Shown here one piece after another: positions 1,656-25,407 of a DNA stretch of 57,335 nucleotides. The DNA comes from Candidatus Aegiribacteria sp. (GTDB taxonomy: Bacteria; Fermentibacterota; Fermentibacteria; Fermentibacterales; JCC-6): contig JAUVLV010000009.1 of assembly GCA_030600545.1 (NCBI GenBank), positions 1-57,335 of the forward strand. Reading direction: 5' to 3'. Within the stretch, counting starts at the first letter, position 1. Every line of letters starts with the position of its first letter. Position numbers and translations under genes: made by a program. The notes beneath the pieces were generated by a model that searched no databases, had not been told where the DNA came from, and was given only the letters and a program-made list of their open reading frames with translations.

Positions 1656-3821
1656 TTACCTCAGCACGATCAGTTTTGCGGAATCGGAAATACCAGCGTT
1701 CGTAATACCCCTGCAGAAGTATATACCTGAAGGAACCGGGACACCGTTATCATTTCTGCAGTTCCAGGAAACAATATGATTCCCCGGATCGAGCATATCA
1801 TCAGCCAGAACGGATATTATTCTTCCATTCATGTCGTACACTTCAATTCTTGCTTCCGATGCGGAAAGACCTCCCAGATAGAAGGAAATTGAAGCAGATG
1901 ACCCGCACGGATTGGGATAGATACTGTGGAAACACAGGGATGAAACCCCTCCTGGCTCCGTCTGTTCAGCAATCCCTGTCTGGTCTTCGTATAGATAGGC
2001 TGTCAGGTTAATGCGCTGTGTTACGTTGAGAGATGACTCATTCGATATTATCGACCTGTACTGTTCATCGGAGGGAATAACAAAATCCACATTCCCCGAA
2101 CAGGCGTTCTCTGATATTTCATACGCTTCAAACGGATCACTGCTGATATAACTCGAGTAGTTTATCTCATCACAAATGAAGAAATCAACGTTCCCCGGAG
2201 AAAGCGTTTCTGAATAGACATCACCATCATCAAAATTTGTACCGTAAATGGTCTCACCCGAAACATCGTAATCAATCATAAGCCTGTAATCATCGGTAGG
2301 TGGTACGGGAGGTGAATCAGGTGAGATATCCAGCGAGGTTACTTCTCCGGATAGTACTACATCAACCGTATAGTGCAGACCTGTAACAGTTGATGTCGTG
2401 ACAGTGGAGTAACCTGAAACCGGATAATTCCCGATGGGGCTTGTTACCTTCATGTAGAGCGGCCTGCTGTCGCCAAAAAGAAATTGCCCGGTACCTGAGC
2501 TTGCGGTGTAACCCACCAGGCATCGCGGGCCCGGAGACCCATCACTGTCCAGTACTATACAGGCTCCATCCACCGGATTTCCAAGATTGTCCTTCACATT
2601 GACCGTCAGCGTGCATACTTCGGTATACCTCTCCGTGACATTCCATGTGTAACCGTCTCCCCTCCAGTTAAACACACTGGCCATATCCCATCCCCAGCCG
2701 GGATCGTAAACTCTGGGGTTGTTTATATGCGTTCCCACCGGCTCCCAGGCTATCCATTCCCTCTCCCAGAATTCGTTTATCTTGTGGTTGTCTCTGTACA
2801 TTGCCGATACTGTCGCGGGGACAAAGGCGGTTCTCGAAGCCGCAGCGGTCAGATAGGAATGAACACTGCAGGTCCCTTCATGCCAGTTATATATCCTGAC
2901 AGGCTGGCTATGGTGTGTATGTGAATGGAACCACATGCTTTCCGTCACCCATGTGCTCAGGGCTCCAATCGCTCCGTTGTCGAGACTGCTCACATTGCAG
3001 TTCCAGAGGGTTTTGCAAACCGAAAGGAAATCTTTCAGCAGAGGATATCCCGTATCCGCGTGGTTGAAAAGGTAATCCCTCCAGAAAACACCGGTAGGGG
3101 GATCGGCATGACCTCCCGTTGCTGGATTTATGTAATCCGGCCTCTCTCTGTGGATTTTAGGGTGAGCCACAAACCAGTAATAGATGTCCTGCGGAAGTTC
3201 AAACGTTAACGTGTCTGGATCCTGGTAAACCTTGTACTCGATGGTCGAGTAGTAGTTACCGCCGTTTGATGAAGTTCCGTAGTCTATTATGTCGGCGTAA
3301 GCCAGAAATGCATCTGTATCGTACAGTAGCGACACATTGAATGTAAGAACTTCAGGATGAAAAAGATGGCTGCCGAGTGTCTGCGGAGCAATATGCGCAA
3401 TTTCAAAGGCGATCTCATCAACGTAAGGATCGGAAGCTGTCATAATAATATCAGCGTATATGTCCTGATAGTAACTCGAAAGCCTTGAAAAATTATCTGC
3501 AAGATCGATCTGCAGCCATTCGGGAGCCTTCTCGACCGCGTCCTGAGCGTTGCTTGTCAAATCGCTCGGGGGAGGCTCGAACTGCAGTGTTCCCGAGCTG
3601 TTTGAAAAGGTTATCACACAATTTTCGCCGGTGGGAACTCTAATCGAAGCGTTAATCGAATCTACAAGTACCCATTCATAACTATTCTGCTGCAGTTCAT
3701 TTTCAAGTCCGGCACCTGTTATTTCACAGGGCAGAGAAAGCAGGACAACAAACAGTGTGAAAACCGGGAAGAATATCCCTGAGTTTGTAGAAATGATCCT
3801 ATAACTGATACCACCGCTCAT
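1656..3821 (-). CDS. Secreted transglutaminase-like protein with sorting domain
   Basis: The protein has about 721 residues. The N-terminus has a hydrophobic segment at about residues 15-38 that fits a signal peptide. A transglutaminase/papain-like core is suggested by Cys near residue 317 (GTCSVHS), His near 346 (DNHKINE) and Asp near 373 (RVYDPGW), in the right order for a Cys-His-Asp triad. A carboxypeptidase-regulatory-like Ig segment follows (about 420-515). A C-terminal Ig-like domain (about 635-721, beginning SIYPNPCG) matches T9SS type A or FlgD-Ig sorting domains. I chose the internal ATG at 3821 because it overlaps the upstream stop as ATGA; longer starts would run into the upstream gene. 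Substrate is unknown: it could be a protease, a cross-linker or an inactive binding protein. Confidence 0.8.
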   Translation of the reverse strand: MSGGISYRIISTNSGIFFPVFTLFVVLLSLPCEITGAGLENELQQNSYEWVLVDSINASIRVPTGENCVITFSNSSGTLQFEPPPSDLTSNAQDAVEKAPEWLQIDLADNFSRLSSYYQDIYADIIMTASDPYVDEIAFEIAHIAPQTLGSHLFHPEVLTFNVSLLYDTDAFLAYADIIDYGTSSNGGNYYSTIEYKVYQDPDTLTFELPQDIYYWFVAHPKIHRERPDYINPATGGHADPPTGVFWRDYLFNHADTGYPLLKDFLSVCKTLWNCNVSSLDNGAIGALSTWVTESMWFHSHTHHSQPVRIYNWHEGTCSVHSYLTAAASRTAFVPATVSAMYRDNHKINEFWEREWIAWEPVGTHINNPRVYDPGWGWDMASVFNWRGDGYTWNVTERYTEVCTLTVNVKDNLGNPVDGACIVLDSDGSPGPRCLVGYTASSGTGQFLFGDSRPLYMKVTSPIGNYPVSGYSTVTTSTVTGLHYTVDVVLSGEVTSLDISPDSPPVPPTDDYRLMIDYDVSGETIYGTNFDDGDVYSETLSPGNVDFFICDEINYSSYISSDPFEAYEISENACSGNVDFVIPSDEQYRSIISNESSLNVTQRINLTAYLYEDQTGIAEQTEPGGVSSLCFHSIYPNPCGSSASISFYLGGLSASEARIEVYDMNGRIISVLADDMLDPGNHIVSWNCRNDNGVPVPSGIYFCRGITNAGISDSAKLIVLR

Positions 3822-5563
3822 TGCAGATGTACCAGTCTTGTTGTGTAATTCCTGGATCCGGCCGTAAGGCGGCAGATATAGATTCCGCTGGGCGTTTGGT
3901 TCCCGCTGGTTCCGCTCCATGTTACCGTATTCGTTCCCGCCGGCATATTGTCGCTGATCAATGTGTCAACAAGTCTTCCCGTGATGTCGAATATCTCAAG
4001 TGTGACAGGCACCCGTTCAGTAAGATCAAAAGAAATAACTGTAGAACCTGAGAACGGATTCGGGCTGCTTGCAAGATTGCAGTCGATAAAAGGCTGTACG
4101 CCTCCGCCGCCTATACCTGTCAGAGGATTGCATGTAAAAGTGAGCTCTCTTGTAGCACCCGCCGGCAGAGGATCTTCATTCTTATTCCAGATATGCATAA
4201 TAGCGAAATTGTCAGTAACGACAACATCCTTACAGTCATGACTTACCACTATGATATCTTGGGCTCTGATGGGGAGAAGGACTATTGGAGACCTGTAACC
4301 CCACTTATTCGTATAACCGGGACTTCCCTCTATATTCATAGTTATAGTCACAGTGACTTCCCACGGAGTGTCCGTACAGTCAACCACTACATCTTCAGAA
4401 TAGAGCAGTGTATCGTAAACACCCACATCGATGGGAACCCTCGCCTCCATAGCGGGATCTCCGTAAAGCGCGGAACCGTTCAGATCGGGTGCGCCTCCCG
4501 CTCCGGGAGTTGCGTTGTGCATGTCGTAATAGAGAGCCTGATTCGCAAGGAAATACGCCTGCGGCCAGGTGTAATGCGCCTGGCGCTCAAAATAAGCCTT
4601 TGTGCCTCCGTGCTGCTGACTTAAAGTACCTTCATTGATAACGTATCCGGTATAGAAATAAGCTCCGGCGGTATGAAGCCATCCAAGAGCCATCGAATTG
4701 TCGTTGTATATTTTACCGATCTTACAATTTCCCAGGCCAAAGAATATCTTCGGATTGATAGAATTTATATGCAGCGTGTCTCCTCCATGTGTACGGCCGA
4801 TTGCCTGGCATCCCAGGCTGCCGTACGATTTGAAATATCCTTCGTCACCGGGAGTTGGATAGTGCATCTGCCATTGGAAGTGAGCTCCGTGTCCGCTTGT
4901 AATGAAAATATTGATACTGTCGGCATTCAGACATTCAACAAGCCATTCCGTTCTGTCCCTAGGACCATCAGTATGCTGAACAGCAAGGGGGTCGTTCAGT
5001 GCTTTGGTATAGTAAAGTCCATAGTTGGCTTCGCTTGTGGAAATACCCTGCGGATAATGGGTAAGGTCACAGCTGGTAGTTCCTCCGAGAACGGTTATTA
5101 CGTCAAACCCCTCAGGACCGGTGGCAATTCTCAGTGCGTCGGACGCATAGTACCCTGTAATGATTCCCCATATAGCGTCTCCGTATGGATCGTCATCCAG
5201 TTCACGGCCGAATTTCCATACGGTATCCACAAATGTCGCTGTTGCGTTATCCCATTCAGATACGAATGCAATGTAATCCGGTGCGTACAGGCTGAGGGGA
5301 TATTGAATACTATAGATACTGCCGGAGTAGTTAAAAACCTCAGCCGAATACTTCGCTACAAGGCTGTCCACCACCTCGGCCCAGTCGGCCTCCAGGTAAG
5401 TATCATCCCGAATCACTACCGCATACCTGAATGAACCTCTTTCCGCCGTCCACTGTGCCGTGACCGGCGCGGCAAAGATGCAAAAAAGGCACAGGAGAAC
5501 AAGGAGAGTGCCAGCTTTTCCAGCATTCGCGAAAGAACGAACTGAGCCCGGGTAATTCTTCAT
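3818..5563 (-). CDS. Secreted caspase-fold peptidase (C25 gingipain-like)
   Basis: The protein has 581 residues with a clear signal peptide (hydrophobic core about 18-35, ending PVTAQ). The clan CD pattern is visible: a His-Gly in ITSGHGAHF near residue 225 and a Cys in GLGNCKIGK near residue 280, each after a hydrophobic strand. This fits the catalytic dyad of C25 gingipain-like and other caspase-fold peptidases. The C-terminal 80 residues (starting SSPNPFSG) form a T9SS type A-like sorting domain. The gene is first in a two-gene operon with the transglutaminase-like gene, coupled through ATGA. The assignment to C25 rather than another clan CD family is an inference from layout and motif. 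Confidence 0.82.
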   Translation of the reverse strand: MKNYPGSVRSFANAGKAGTLLVLLCLFCIFAAPVTAQWTAERGSFRYAVVIRDDTYLEADWAEVVDSLVAKYSAEVFNYSGSIYSIQYPLSLYAPDYIAFVSEWDNATATFVDTVWKFGRELDDDPYGDAIWGIITGYYASDALRIATGPEGFDVITVLGGTTSCDLTHYPQGISTSEANYGLYYTKALNDPLAVQHTDGPRDRTEWLVECLNADSINIFITSGHGAHFQWQMHYPTPGDEGYFKSYGSLGCQAIGRTHGGDTLHINSINPKIFFGLGNCKIGKIYNDNSMALGWLHTAGAYFYTGYVINEGTLSQQHGGTKAYFERQAHYTWPQAYFLANQALYYDMHNATPGAGGAPDLNGSALYGDPAMEARVPIDVGVYDTLLYSEDVVVDCTDTPWEVTVTITMNIEGSPGYTNKWGYRSPIVLLPIRAQDIIVVSHDCKDVVVTDNFAIMHIWNKNEDPLPAGATRELTFTCNPLTGIGGGGVQPFIDCNLASSPNPFSGSTVISFDLTERVPVTLEIFDITGRLVDTLISDNMPAGTNTVTWSGTSGNQTPSGIYICRLTAGSRNYTTRLVHLQ

Positions 5564-5634: not shown

Positions 5635-6024
5635 CTATCTATTCCGATATAACCAGTCACTTTCCGGTTGCGATTGAGCTTCCTGCACAAGCGTCAGATC
5701 GTTATCACTCATTGACTGCACTGCGCCATCGAGATTACCGTTGATCTTCGTGTAATAAGTTGATGTGGTCTGCTGGGAACTTTTTGCCCAGACTATATGG
5801 ATGTTGTTCTCCTCATCGATATCCATCTGAGGTGCCCAGACCTGATTGCTTGCCGATGTAAGGAAACTCTCATCGATACAGATACTTCCATCGGGATAGA
5901 GTTTCATGTAACAAAGAAGGTTGGATGATCCCGTCCACTGCTGCCAGATAATATGAGCATTTCCGTTACTGTCACAGCATATCTGAGGTTTATTCATCTG
6001 GTTGGAAGCATTGTAGCAAAGGAA
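5635..6024 (-). pseudogene. Truncated repeat-protein remnant (BNR/sialidase-like)
   Basis: An open stretch of about 130 codons encodes two to three units with the pattern D-x-x-(G/N)-N-x-H-I-(I/V)-W, as in NAHIIWQQ and NIHIVWAK, typical of BNR-like propeller blades. The first ATG is at 5997, but the repeat pattern continues upstream of it (ASNQ before the Met repeats as ASNQ 40 residues later) until a stop at 6025-6027. The frame therefore looks like the 3' end of a longer gene whose 5' part is lost. There is no signal peptide. It sits just upstream of the C25-like gene on the same strand. Confidence 0.6.
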
Positions 6025-6027
6025 TTA

Positions 6028-6308
6028 GGATGGCCCATTCCTCCTTCCAAGGCAACCCCAGGGAAAGTGCACACTATATCGGACACAACTCAGAAAGCCT
6101 CCTAATTCTATTATAGAAAGTATTAGCATAATAGACAACATCTCTCATCCACAATATGAGAAGGTCTAATTGTAGATGGCGAGATGACAAGCTGCCTTAT
6201 TCTTGAAGATATTCTCAGTGAATAGGACACCAGTGAAAATATTTGACAATATTTTAGTATTATGTATAATTTTATGATTGCCATTAAACATATGGAAAGG
6301 ATTCCGTA
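6028..6308. other. Non-coding gap with a strong promoter at its right end
   Basis: About 280 bases hold no convincing gene. The left part may carry decayed sequence of the repeat-protein remnant. The right end holds the promoter for the propeller lipoprotein, listed separately. Confidence 0.6.
6243..6270 (+). promoter_or_regulatory. Consensus sigma-70 promoter
   Basis: A perfect TTGACA at 6243-6248 and a perfect TATAAT at 6265-6270 are 16 bases apart. The start codon of the lipoprotein gene follows 39 bases after the -10 box, which leaves room for a short leader. It is the closest match to consensus in the window, so high expression is expected. Confidence 0.85.
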
Positions 6309-7442
6309 ATGAAATATGAACTTTTTTTAACATCAGCTGTACTAATTTTTACTCTCTCCGGTTGCGGCAAAGAACAGACTGAACGGATTCCGGACGAACC
6401 GGAAGCAGACACAGAATTTGTTCTGGAACTCGTGATTACCGACTCTATAGGTGTCGAACTCGGCGACTCGAATTACGTTTTCGGCTCAATAGAAGCTTCA
6501 TCGCATACTGCGGAAGGCAATATTCTCGTTCTCGACCGGCCTGCATGCTGTGTTCGCGAGTACACTCCCGATGGCGATTTCGTCAAGAACTTTGGAAGAC
6601 GGGGTTCAGGCCCCGGTGAATTTTACAATCCGCTATCCATGGTTCGCCTGAATGACGGACGAGTATCCATATTTGATATGCAGACCGGGATGAGCGTTTT
6701 TCTTGCAGAAGGCGAATGGGATGGAATTACCGCCGAGATCTTCGGAGAACCGGTTATGTGGTTAACCGCGGCTGACAGTAATCGATACATTGGAACAATT
6801 AACGATTTCGAGATTATTGATGATCAGCCGATTCTCACGGCTTATGTGGGCAGATTCGAGATAAACGAGACAGAACCATCCCTTATCTACTGGGAGAACT
6901 CTTTCGTGTTCGATTTCTCGAATTCTTCACAGATAGTCGAAGATGCTTATTTCGCCAAAACATGGGCTTCAGACAGAGATGGAAATGTATTCCTTGCCTC
7001 CAGGGACACCGAGGAGTATCTGATCACCGGATTTGACACAAATGGAGATGAATTCGTCGAAATATCGATGGATCTTCCTGCGGTTCAAAAATCAGAAGAG
7101 GAGATCGCTGAAGAGACTGAATTCTGGAATCAACGGGCAAAGAACATGGGGTATGGCGGCCAGCTCAACTACCAGCCTGATCCGTACCGCTGGAAGATCC
7201 ACTCGATGGGAATCGACAGTCAGAGTAAACTCTGGGTCAGAAGAGGAACCGAAGAGATTCCCACATTCGATGTATTCGATTACGAAGGGAATCACCTCTT
7301 TGCTGCGCACATTCCATCTATTATCGGAGCTGACGGTCTTCTATGGGAGGTGCGCGTAGATGAATTCGGAATACTCGCATGGTCTCTCAACCCGCTTGAT
7401 GGGTACCAGAAACTCTATACACTCGAACTTGCCTCAAATTAA
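6309..7442 (+). CDS. Beta-propeller lipoprotein (6-bladed type)
   Basis: This 377-residue protein has a lipoprotein signal with Cys at about residue 19 (LSGCGKE). It then shows propeller-like repeats, including the segments DSIGVELGDSNYVFG (about 46-60) and GRRGSGPGEF (about 97-106). Both are shared nearly word for word with the lipoprotein at 34321-35559, and the C-terminal DPYRW segment also recurs there, so the two genes are paralogues. It is a single gene behind a consensus promoter. A cell-envelope binding role is likely, but nothing in the sequence names a ligand. Confidence 0.8.
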   Translation: MKYELFLTSAVLIFTLSGCGKEQTERIPDEPEADTEFVLELVITDSIGVELGDSNYVFGSIEASSHTAEGNILVLDRPACCVREYTPDGDFVKNFGRRGSGPGEFYNPLSMVRLNDGRVSIFDMQTGMSVFLAEGEWDGITAEIFGEPVMWLTAADSNRYIGTINDFEIIDDQPILTAYVGRFEINETEPSLIYWENSFVFDFSNSSQIVEDAYFAKTWASDRDGNVFLASRDTEEYLITGFDTNGDEFVEISMDLPAVQKSEEEIAEETEFWNQRAKNMGYGGQLNYQPDPYRWKIHSMGIDSQSKLWVRRGTEEIPTFDVFDYEGNHLFAAHIPSIIGADGLLWEVRVDEFGILAWSLNPLDGYQKLYTLELASN

Positions 7443-19481: not shown

Positions 19482-21710
19482 ATGAATGCAATCATTTTCG
19501 TTTTTATGCTTGCTGGTTTTCCAGATCCCGCAGCATTCACCATAACTATTGCGGATTCTCCGGAAGGACTGCTTTGCACCGATGGCCGCCATACCGGGCT
19601 TTACCTTGACGGTAACAGAGCAGAAGTTGAAGTACTTTCACTTCAGCCCGGAGCAGGACGCAATGTTGTCATTGCCGGTGAAAGTATTCTTTTCAAGGAA
19701 TGTGCAGCAGGTGAATTCCAGAGAGTCATCAGCATTACCGAAACAGGTGAAAGAACGGTTCTTTTCGAGAGAGATTATTTCAGTGGTCCTTTCGAATACA
19801 CGGACAGCAGATTTCTGATCGCCGAGAGAGGCAGAATCATCGAATACAATTTCAACGGTGAAGAAATGTCCAGCTGGATCATAAACGGTTTCCCTGCATG
19901 GGTAGCCTCCTCTGGAGGAACTCTGTTCTATACAGGAGAATCGGGCGGTCTTGAAATGGTCGATATCCTGTCCGGAGAACTTTCGGAAATGTCAAACTAC
20001 GGAGAGACAACTTTTTCAAGTATTACAACCGGGTCCGGTGGCATGCTTCTGGCTGAAAAATCGCCCTGTGGTTTCACAGTTCTTGATCCTTCAGGTTATG
20101 TAATCCTTGAAAACCGGGAAGGTTACTTCCCTTCATGGACCGATGAGGGTAACATTCTGTGTTCGTACCTTGAATTCGAGGGAATGGAACCCGTAGCAGG
20201 AAAGATCTGCAGCATTAATCCCCATAACGGGTCAGAACGATTCCTTGCCGATGAAGGTATCCCCCTGTATCCTCTTGAGCTTGCGGATGGAGAAATTTTC
20301 TGGACCGATGCCGATGAGGGCTCTATTCACGGAATTGATACATCACGTTTTCCAGTTATCGAAACAGATTCCGGTACGGATGATCCCGATGCTCATTTCG
20401 ATGTTTCCTACATGCACCAGAGATGGGATACGCCCGATTGGTTCAACGGAAGCTGGTCGTGCGGCCCCACTTCATGCATGATGACAGTTCAGTACTACAT
20501 GATGCTCACCCCGGATTCCATATGGGCTTCGTATCCCTCCCCAGGTCACTGGAGCATGTGGGGCAACTATATTCCCGTAGAGTACACTTTCCTTGGTTAT
20601 ACCTACGATGAATTTGGTGACTGTCCCGGAGATTCGGTTCCCGGCGCCCACGGGTTCATATGCCCTGATGGCGGAGCCTGGTGGAACAACATGGTTGATT
20701 TTCTCAACCGGCATGAGGTTAGCTCTTCATGGGCGGGTACTTCATGGTCTACCCTCACAGGTCAGATAGACAGTGATTACCCGGTGGTCTGTTCGAGCAA
20801 TGTTCTGGGCCATGGCCATATAATTCTCCTGAACGGTTACTACTCCAACCATACAATTGTGGTAAATGACCCCTACGGAGACGCAAATGAAAGCGGCTGG
20901 GGTAATTACTACAACGGCAAGGACGTTCTGTACGACTGGCCGGGCTACAATAACGGCCACGTAGAAATAGGAGTAAGCCAGCTCTTCTACGCCCAGGCAC
21001 AGATACCTTCCGAACCGGACACTCTGGTGGACGACTGCAGCAGGGGCTTTTACAAGTACGCCAACTGCCGCTACTGGCACCTGACGGGAAGCGGCTACAA
21101 CGGTAACGCATGGTGGACATATTCAACCGGGGCACTACCTGACACCTGCATCGCCGAATGGCATCCGGTACTGCCTTTCGAAGGAGATTACGATGTATCC
21201 GTTTATATCCCTCCTGCCTATGCCTCGGCAACGGGGAAATACAAGCTGCAGACATCAACAGGCATTATAGAAATCAGCCTTAACCAGGGATTGTACAGTG
21301 GAGAATGGGTTACCCTGGGCACTTTTAATCTCGATAATGGTTCTTACCTCAGGCTTGGTGATTACACCGGAACCGGGGGTCAGTACATATCCTTCGACGC
21401 TGCCCTTTTCAGCCCATCGGGAACTGAAATCAACGGGGATGGATCAGCTGTCCGGCCTCAGGAAATACACTTATGGCCGAATCCCTGCGGAGAGCTTGTC
21501 TCTATATGCCCCTCATCCATAAATGAAGGGGTATCGATAGAAATATACGATACTTCGGGAAGACTTGTTTCAAATATCTCGTTCACCGGGTTCACTGATA
21601 TCATGCAGCTGGACGTGTCATCCTTTTCTGCAGGGCTTTACTTGCTTCGGATCAACGTGATCGGAACAGGCGATTCAACATTTTCCAGGTTCCTTACAGT
21701 CTGCAGATAA
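19482..21710 (+). CDS. Secreted propeller/C39-like peptidase/golvesin/sorting-domain protein
   Basis: This 742-residue protein has a short signal peptide and four regions. Residues 20-300 look like a beta-propeller. Residues about 305-510 are a C39-like papain-fold peptidase: Cys near 327 in GSWSCGPTSCM, His near 444-446 in GHGHIILLNG, and Asp near 463 in VVNDPYGD. Residues about 515-650 resemble the golvesin C-terminal-like domain. The last 80 residues (LWPNPCGEL start) form a T9SS type A-like sorting domain. Standard C39 peptidases cut double-Gly leaders inside ABC exporters; this one is instead predicted to be exported and surface-bound. Substrate unknown. Confidence 0.82.
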   Translation: MNAIIFVFMLAGFPDPAAFTITIADSPEGLLCTDGRHTGLYLDGNRAEVEVLSLQPGAGRNVVIAGESILFKECAAGEFQRVISITETGERTVLFERDYFSGPFEYTDSRFLIAERGRIIEYNFNGEEMSSWIINGFPAWVASSGGTLFYTGESGGLEMVDILSGELSEMSNYGETTFSSITTGSGGMLLAEKSPCGFTVLDPSGYVILENREGYFPSWTDEGNILCSYLEFEGMEPVAGKICSINPHNGSERFLADEGIPLYPLELADGEIFWTDADEGSIHGIDTSRFPVIETDSGTDDPDAHFDVSYMHQRWDTPDWFNGSWSCGPTSCMMTVQYYMMLTPDSIWASYPSPGHWSMWGNYIPVEYTFLGYTYDEFGDCPGDSVPGAHGFICPDGGAWWNNMVDFLNRHEVSSSWAGTSWSTLTGQIDSDYPVVCSSNVLGHGHIILLNGYYSNHTIVVNDPYGDANESGWGNYYNGKDVLYDWPGYNNGHVEIGVSQLFYAQAQIPSEPDTLVDDCSRGFYKYANCRYWHLTGSGYNGNAWWTYSTGALPDTCIAEWHPVLPFEGDYDVSVYIPPAYASATGKYKLQTSTGIIEISLNQGLYSGEWVTLGTFNLDNGSYLRLGDYTGTGGQYISFDAALFSPSGTEINGDGSAVRPQEIHLWPNPCGELVSICPSSINEGVSIEIYDTSGRLVSNISFTGFTDIMQLDVSSFSAGLYLLRINVIGTGDSTFSRFLTVCR

Positions 21711-24112: not shown

Positions 24113-25407
24113 ATGAAGGCAAGTTTTTCTATTCTGATTCTTCTCACGGCTATCGCTGCAGCCACCGGCGCTGTAGATGCCAATTCGGCTGCGAATCTGG
24201 TATACACTGACATTCTAGTCGAGAATATCACCGGCAAATCCATCATGGTGCTTGACAGGGCACTCACCCATGGATCAAAAGTAGAAACCTGGCACGATGA
24301 AGTAACTGTGCCCTTTAATGGCTACCTTGTCCTAATCGATGACATGGCTTACGCTAACTGGGAACATCCCTGCCGATGGGTGTTCGTAAGCACGAATGGT
24401 GAAATGGAAATCATCAGGATGATCATATCATCGTCTGTTTCGCGGACGGGCTCAATCCCGATTCCGACCAGTCGGGCGGGATAAATTCTAATCCCGATTT
24501 TGACGATGACGGCGACAGTGATATTATCTACGACGCCACTTCATCTGGAGTAACCAGCGGATTCAATGACATCAACAACCTGGTGGGTGCCGATGATCAC
24601 CTGTTTATATTCACAACGGATCATGGCGGCTCCGGTATGGGCAGTCTTGACAGCCCTCCCGAAGTCATTCTCAACCTTTGGAACGGTACGCTGGATGACG
24701 ACACATTTATGGGATACATGGATACATTCTCCGGCATATCCATTCATGTGGTAATGGAACAGTGCTACTCTGGCGGATTCCTTGAAGAGGTTATCAACAC
24801 CGGAGCAACCCAGCCCAGAACATTTGCAAGCGCTGCGAATGCCACTGAATCAAGCTGGTCGGGAGCAACTTATCCGGAATACGATGAGTATGTATACTAC
24901 TGGACAGGCTCCATGCACGGTTCGATCCCACCGAGCAGCGGCCCTGGACCCGGAGCGCTTCCTGGAAACCCTGACATGAACGGTGACGGTCATATTTCCA
25001 TGTACGAAGCAGCCACAAAATCCAGGGAATGGGACACTGCCGGAGAGCATCCTCTGTGGGACGATACCCCGGACAGCTGTGGCGACACGTATTACCTTGG
25101 TGGACTGATTGAAACCGGCATAGGTGACTCCGAATACTCCTTTATTCCATCAACAGTCGATCTCACAATTACGGCTAATCCGGTATTATCCTTATCAAGC
25201 GTTGTCTTCAACCTCGGCAGCCCGGGCGAAGTGAATATCACTGTTTACGACATGAGCGGCCATGCAGTTGACAATCTGCTCAGTAATGAACTCGCAGCGG
25301 GTCAGCATACAGTCAACTGGAGTACAGACGGGCTTGCGGCCGGAGTATACATCGTAAAGTTCACAACAGGGAATTATATGGAAAGTGTTAAAGCGGTTAA
25401 GTTCTGA
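24113..25407 (+). pseudogene. Frameshifted secreted caspase-like peptidase with sorting domain
   Basis: A GGAGG site and ATG at 24113 open a frame with a signal peptide (MKASFSILIL start) that stops at 24484. From about 24400 the sequence continues as a good protein in the -1 frame to 25407. The second part has a caspase/legumain-like dyad, His at 24622-24624 (TTDHGGSG) and Cys at 24763-24765 (VMEQCYSGGF), and a T9SS type A-like C-terminal domain (ITANPVLS to the end). The frame 1 part opens after a TGA near 24399, so the shift lies close to 24400-24412, before QDDHIIVCF. A short stretch expected between the halves also seems missing. It is either a disrupted gene or a sequence error. Confidence 0.75.

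Follow-up and report, generated by a model that had tools for sequence, protein, structure and literature searches.

A conserved overlapping gene pair from Candidatus Aegiribacteria, predicted to encode an exported C25-like peptidase and an exported transglutaminase-fold enzyme

The DNA analysed here (the window) is a stretch of 57,335 nucleotides from Candidatus Aegiribacteria sp. (order Fermentibacterales, Fermentibacterota; GenBank assembly GCA_030600545.1, contig JAUVLV010000009.1). It carries on its minus strand two overlapping genes, A and B, each with a C-terminal sorting domain of the type IX secretion system (T9SS). The features of the pair are as follows.

3818..5563, minus strand: gene A (P0001), 581 amino acids, a candidate C25-like cysteine peptidase with export signals.
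1656..3821, minus strand: gene B (P0002), 721 amino acids, a predicted transglutaminase-fold enzyme with export signals, closest by profile to the peptide:N-glycanases among solved structures.
3818..3821, minus strand: ATGA stop/start overlap of A and B, read from the sequence.
3830..4063, minus strand: T9SS type A C-terminal sorting domain of A (TIGR04183).
1665..1922, minus strand: T9SS type A C-terminal sorting domain of B (TIGR04183).
4109..5449, minus strand: core of A, residues 39-485, used in family alignment A4, with the H225 codon at 4889-4891 and the C280 codon at 4724-4726.
2628..2927, minus strand: stretch of B matching peptide:N-glycanase, residues ~299-398 (positions 255-354 of alignment A5), with the codons of C318 at 2868-2870, H346 at 2784-2786 and E360 at 2742-2744.

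The start codon of B (ATG, 3821-3819) overlaps the stop codon of A (TGA, 3820-3818) to give ATGA, as the original prediction for this DNA had stated, and the same four bases form the junction in all ten pairs found in the order, with the surrounding bases drifted. In the window the B frame can be extended outwards to 3920; the start at the ATGA is supported by seven of the ten pairs of the order, in which that codon is exactly where the longest frame of B opens. The overlap suggests that the two genes may be translationally coupled. Both are under purifying selection, with a ratio of nonsynonymous to synonymous substitution rates of ~0.14-0.17 for each gene in two comparisons (G018 and G015).

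A and B were each searched in 117 genomes, 42 of them from the order. Full-length A was found in 10 of these 42, the relatives with at least 60% identity belonging to genomes named Candidatus Aegiribacteria, Sabulitectum, Fermentibacteraceae and Fermentibacteria, and B was present in the same ten genomes at 72% identity or more, adjoining A on the same contig. The search across related genomes that had been proposed as a check on the pair bore it out in all ten order genomes with full-length A and, as described below, in some genomes of other phyla. No flanking gene is common to all ten pairs, and several contigs stop soon after the pair. Genome G008 holds a further copy of A that is cut by a contig end, and in G027 a B-like tail of 66 residues lies at the edge of a contig and cannot be placed. 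A second A copy, 60% identical to P0001 and without an adjoining B, is found in G029 (contig C32; L066 1159-2889, minus strand). A more distant subfamily of B (31-37% identity) is widespread in the order and often occurs where A is absent; the eight distant-B regions fetched (six from the order) contain no A core. G044 has both an A relative and a distant B on one contig, ~40 kb apart.

Beyond the order, a profile scan of named genomes for A relatives returned 51 loci, which span Fermentibacteria, Zixibacteria, Tariuqbacter, Latescibacterota, WOR-3, Stahlbacteria, TA06, Cloacimonadota, Fibrobacter, Chitinispirillaceae, Kiritimatiellae and others. Forty-one A-bearing genomes outside the order were searched with the B profile and the A profile. 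A close B (E <1e-240, a cut chosen after the scores were seen, the next value being 1.2e-180) was present in 8 of the 41, on the A contig in all eight and adjoining A in seven; six of the eight are members of the profile and score high by construction, and G117 and G130 are not members. The two genes are separated by 313 bases in G117, with an 86-residue frame called between them, and by a 499-base gap in G118; in G130, B lies on the strand of A with a Kelch protein and an FG-GAP protein in between. B precedes A in L103 and G130. Ten of the 41 genomes carry weaker B-like proteins only, never on the A contig, and in 23 no B was detected at E 1e-15. Since most genomes are fragmented or incomplete assemblies, some of the unpaired cases may be contig breaks, as in G127, where B stands at a contig end. 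Because the 41 genomes had been picked for carrying A, the whole phylum of G120 (Zixibacteria, 132 genomes) was also scanned. B (E <=1e-40) occurs there in three genomes, adjoining A in all three, and A (E <=1e-30) in four; the pairs of G119 and G120 were known before the scan, and the third, in G269, is new, with frames 23 bases apart.

In a tree of 18 paired and 13 unpaired B sequences, the 18 paired and three of the unpaired sequences form one well supported group, and 3 changes suffice to explain the pairing, compared to 10.3 in shuffles. In the corresponding A tree (18 paired and 25 unpaired rows) 6 changes are required, compared to 14.0, which indicates repeated gain or loss of the pairing among the A genes. 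The A and B distance matrices of the 18 pairs are correlated with r = 0.97, a value uncorrected for species history.

Both proteins score above the cut-off of 23 bits with the NCBIfam model TIGR04183 for T9SS type A domains (A 39.4, B 32.8); with Pfam Por_Secre_tail (cut-off 27), A is above the threshold at 30.4 and B below it at 24.7. The N-termini of both look like signal peptides, a judgement made by eye only. SprA_N and PorU were the T9SS parts looked for. In the same genome (2.3 Mb, 73% complete) SprA_N gave a match that is weak and falls in two pieces of one 1866-residue frame, yet exceeds the cut-off (SprA_N was found in 21 of the 24 order genomes searched), and the PorU sortase scored 424.4 bits, just above the cut-off of 420. 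These results agree with the original description of a surface-directed pair with signal peptides and type A sorting domains on both proteins, and the domains suggest that A and B are exported. Because the genome holds 75 sorting-domain matches, the shared tail alone is weak evidence for a link between the genes, and the conserved adjacency together with the ATGA junction is stronger. Two more T9SS sorting domains are encoded in the window at 21474-21659 and 25174-25401 (plus strand).

The family alignment of A comprises 49 rows, the window copy and 48 of the 51 loci; L100 and L124 (no A frame called) and L130 (a fragment) were dropped. His225, within a GH, and Cys280 are invariant in 49/49 rows, as are the D-x-D-x-Y-G-D-A-x-W-G and Y-x-D-P motifs, and conserved residues fall in DxDPYGDAxWG and YGDPA stretches. 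Pfam gave no enzyme domain in the window copy and no family matching more than two of the 49 rows at E <=1, and the NCBIfam and PDB searches gave no match convincingly covering the enzyme part of A. Aligned by hhalign with a profile of 20 diverse C25 domains from this and other genomes, the A profile matched over 198 columns (probability 74.7%, E 2.6e-5). His225 (TSGHG) and Cys280 (GNC) fall on the C25 His and Cys, which we take from the gingipain literature to be the catalytic ones, and the PDYIAFV and DPYGDAIWGIITG stretches of A fall on their C25 counterparts. The controls reached 5.0% for the reversed profile, at most 0.8% in 20 column shuffles and 0.3% for the B core. These alignments suggest that A is probably a divergent relative of the C25 (gingipain) peptidases lying outside PF01364. 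The earlier assignment of A to the caspase-fold peptidases finds support in its His-Gly and Asn-Cys motifs and in the nearness of its profile to C25, and no counterpart among the Pfam enzyme domains.

C25 peptidases are numerous in these bacteria, with 17 matches in the 2.3 Mb of this genome (G000). Across the 32 genomes of the order that were searched the number per genome is 10-26, a large gingipain-type expansion. In some A relatives the domain is part of a longer protein. At L125 (7430-11239) it forms the C-terminal part of a protein of ~1270 residues whose N-terminal part is a GH127 beta-L-arabinofuranosidase by Pfam, and L128 and L132 share this layout (the Pfam scan was made on L125 only). 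Fused proteins were considered as a link between A and B, and the N-terminal parts scanned (L091, L092, L103, L125 and L179) contained no transglutaminase; they hold mainly Ig-like domains (below the cut-off in L103) or GH127 (L125).

As to B, Transglut_core (PF01841) matches 13 of the 14 paired B cores at E <=1, in keeping with the transglutaminase-like enzyme first proposed; the window copy, at 22.5 bits, lies just under the cut-off of 23, and the orthologues of G006, G008 and G010 score 29.2-31. Against the PDB, the paired B profile found only peptide:N-glycanases below E 0.1 (5.6e-5, 6.3e-5 and 0.0026), and a wider profile with unpaired members added found them at 2.1e-7, 2.3e-7 and 4.7e-6. 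The match spans C318, H346 and E360 of B and continues to a stretch ending near DG..dVt.rY. The next PDB chains, 8qox (E 0.021) and 3e8v (E 0.028, possibly a member of the transglutaminase family), align with B outside its catalytic part, for which neither B profile found a solved transglutaminase at E <=1. Searched as a single sequence, an ordinary Transglut_core protein encoded at an A locus of Latescibacterota matched 3isr and 6g49 and no N-glycanase. B also aligned with a Transglut_core family of its own order (41%, E 2.8e-4), the Cys, His and acid positions being in register, a comparison based on six sequences, those of 25 loci that passed a motif filter. In the 14 paired cores the three residues (C274, H302 and E316 in A5 numbering) are invariant, and Cys and His are kept in 29/29 rows of the wider set. 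The Cys and His of the predicted Cys-His-Asp triad are thus confirmed as invariant, and the acid in the paired cores is Glu. B is by these matches a transglutaminase-fold protein, closer by score to the peptide:N-glycanases than to any other solved structure. A 2023 classification places the yeast peptide:N-glycanase in the Rad4 family, near Transglut_core (PMC10318531).

The next gene encodes a peptidase in 4 of the 18 pairs (C10 twice, C1 and M28). In G006 a C10 peptidase with an I69 inhibitor domain follows the pair, and its clustered homologue does so in G017; these C10 (streptopain-type) genes, at L069 5773-7257 and L070 9654-11138, lie directly after A-B and carry both I69 and a sorting domain (Pfam was run on L069 only). 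A papain-family C1 peptidase follows the pair at L093 (Zixibacteria), and an M28 peptidase overlaps B at L099/L181 (Latescibacterota). L097 and L098 each have an M28 gene in direct overlap with A, and B was not found there at E 1e-15. Other pairs are followed by opposite-strand genes, contig ends or small unscanned frames, and at L094 by a protein that has a sorting domain and no named enzyme domain. None of ten neighbouring proteins scanned (two beside paired genes, the rest near unpaired B) uses N-glycans, and one of the ten is an S9 peptidase. In the window the gene after the pair (383-1477) gives a weak beta-propeller match. Just upstream of A, a 120-residue BNR-type remnant (5635-5997, minus strand) looks truncated; its G018 homologue (L062 6355-7284) has at least 309 residues and a sorting-domain-like tail, and the window matches only its first 103 residues, at 88% identity. 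A perfect TTGACA-16-TATAAT promoter-like site lies at 6243-6270 (plus strand), upstream of a divergent gene at 6309-7442.

We favour, at a probability of roughly 0.47, the reading that the pair is a co-translated, T9SS-exported module that would degrade extracellular proteins, probably glycoproteins, with A as a C25-like endopeptidase and B as a side-chain amidase, perhaps a de-N-glycosylase. A, as a divergent gingipain-type cysteine endopeptidase of clan CD, would cut the polypeptide, and B, as a transglutaminase-fold cysteine hydrolase, would most likely hydrolyse a side-chain amide, perhaps the bond between N-glycan and asparagine, as do Png1/NGLY1 in eukaryotes; its action would open the substrate to A and to the peptidases sometimes encoded beside the pair. 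An exported degradative module is preferred because the next gene is a peptidase in those four pairs and because of the literature on nutritional peptidases: C25 and M28 peptidases of Latescibacteria have been read as nutritional (PMC4454575), and an Aegiribacteria genome has been reported with multiple proteases and peptidases (PMC4846661). The original prediction had offered two forms of sequential action. The form in which both enzymes process one surface substrate fits these neighbours better, the substrate being our supposition; for the form in which one protein activates or cuts the other, nothing was found in support, with no systematic cleavage-site search made.

Several results weigh against this reading. 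Of the 41 genomes outside the order, 33 have A and lack a close B, so A can work without it. Pfam C25 (PF01364) does not match the window copy of A and matches one of the 49 rows, at E 0.092; the A profile found no PDB sequence at E <=5; and C25 comparisons with other sequence sets were weaker, at 25.8% (E 7e-4) with a set of 30 sequences, many of whose stretches exceeded the domain, and at 9.9% (E 0.0032) in an earlier run with 17 of these 30. A single B sequence found no N-glycanase at E <=1, the family profile being needed, and the acid position varies in the 29 wider B rows (E in 22, Y in 5, Q in 1, D in 1). The two zinc CXXC pairs that Png1 has ahead of its catalytic Cys are absent from the window B core, and CXXC occurs in 4/29 rows, never paired; such zinc-binding pairs are described as a feature of Png1/NGLY1 (PMC9102325). 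In 14 of the 18 pairs no known peptidase follows, with some neighbours unscanned and some contigs ending there. GH92 alpha-mannosidase was found in 0/31 order genomes searched, so a route for using released high-mannose glycans is not evident; this speaks against such glycans as food and not against a deglycosylation that exposes protein.

Two further readings concern the chemistry of B. It could be a transglutaminase-superfamily enzyme of an ordinary kind (a peptidase, a glutamine deamidase or a cross-linker), which with A would make a plain proteolytic or protein-modifying pair; we consider this quite possible, if short of probable. Transglut_core is the only Pfam enzyme family that matches most paired B cores, a family of the order aligns with its triad in register, the N-glycanase match is remote and comes without zinc motifs, and the neighbourhood offers peptidases in 4/18 pairs and the genomes no GH92. 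Set against this, only peptide:N-glycanases among solved structures match the catalytic stretch of B at E <=1, and the ordinary Transglut_core protein from near another A (a single sequence, not a profile) behaves otherwise, finding 3isr and 6g49. The more specific proposal, that B is an exported bacterial transglutaminase-fold peptide:N-glycanase related to Png1/NGLY1 and translated with a gingipain-like protease across several phyla around the FCB group, seems to us rather unlikely on the present matches. If it did hold, the pair could be seen as a bacterial form, acting outside the cell, of the eukaryotic deglycosylate-then-degrade route, an analogy that is doubtful to the same degree.

Other explanations concern the relation between the two proteins. 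A might be a C25-type sortase like PorU, with B joining cargo to the surface by transamidation, of which the transglutaminase fold is capable. PorU is itself C25-type and present in the genome, and both proteins bear sorting domains; we nevertheless regard the idea as improbable, since a PorU is already available, the next genes that are known enzymes are peptidases and not T9SS parts, and the C25 set in which PorU was confirmed (for 1 of 30, tested by name) aligned more weakly with A than did the diverse set, the two sets having been prepared differently. There is a similarly small chance that the genes form a maturation pair in which one enzyme cleaves and activates the other. Their overlap and joint inheritance, as reflected in the correlated distances of the 18 pairs, would suit such a relation; the 33 genomes with A and no close B indicate that A can work without B and does not need it, and neither a cleavage site nor a propeptide was noticed, in the course of work that included no systematic search. 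That A and B are chance neighbours in a genome as rich in sorting domains as this one (75 matches in 2.3 Mb) is very improbable indeed; adjacency recurs in several phyla, the ATGA junction is fixed, and every full-length close B found in the order, in the 41 genomes and in the G120 phylum is on the A contig, the unplaceable tail of G027 standing apart.

The degradative module remains the reading we prefer. Our search of open-access full text found no paper on a gingipain or C25 peptidase paired with a transglutaminase-like enzyme and none bringing together type IX secretion, PNGase, N-glycan and protease, and an exported bacterial transglutaminase-fold peptide:N-glycanase did not turn up in the open-access literature. 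The passages of a 2023 review that treat bacterial N-glycan release name GH18, GH85 and PNGase enzymes without using the word transglutaminase (PMC10154615). Gene order across phyla here ties together two enzyme families without settled function, and one of them hints at N-glycanase-like chemistry among the proteins that bacteria export. If this were true, NGLY1 would gain a counterpart open to testing, B might serve as a new tool enzyme for releasing glycans, and the pair would show how bacteria of sediments open glycoproteins; the plain reading would still yield a conserved pair of predicted exported hydrolases in uncultured lineages.

Compared with known systems, A resembles the C25 peptidases (gingipains and PorU) in the profile match, with 198 columns in the same order and His and Cys aligned, and in its sorting domain, and differs from them in escaping Pfam C25 and in its own invariant motifs (DxDxYGDAxWG, GH, C and YxDP). 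B shares with the Transglut_core superfamily, such as TgpA and the animal transglutaminases, the family match of its paired cores at E <=1, whereas no solved transglutaminase matches its catalytic part at that level. With the eukaryotic cytosolic Png1/NGLY1 it shares the aligned Cys, His and acid and the stretch past the triad; in contrast to them, B is bacterial, has a sorting domain, lacks the zinc CXXC pairs and, in its paired members, has Glu as the acid. The fold of PNGase F is unrelated to that of B, which is predicted to be a transglutaminase fold, and the bacterial PNGase F-type enzymes would catalyse the same reaction as B if B is a de-N-glycosylase. They are described as extracellular and of nutritional use (PMC10154615).

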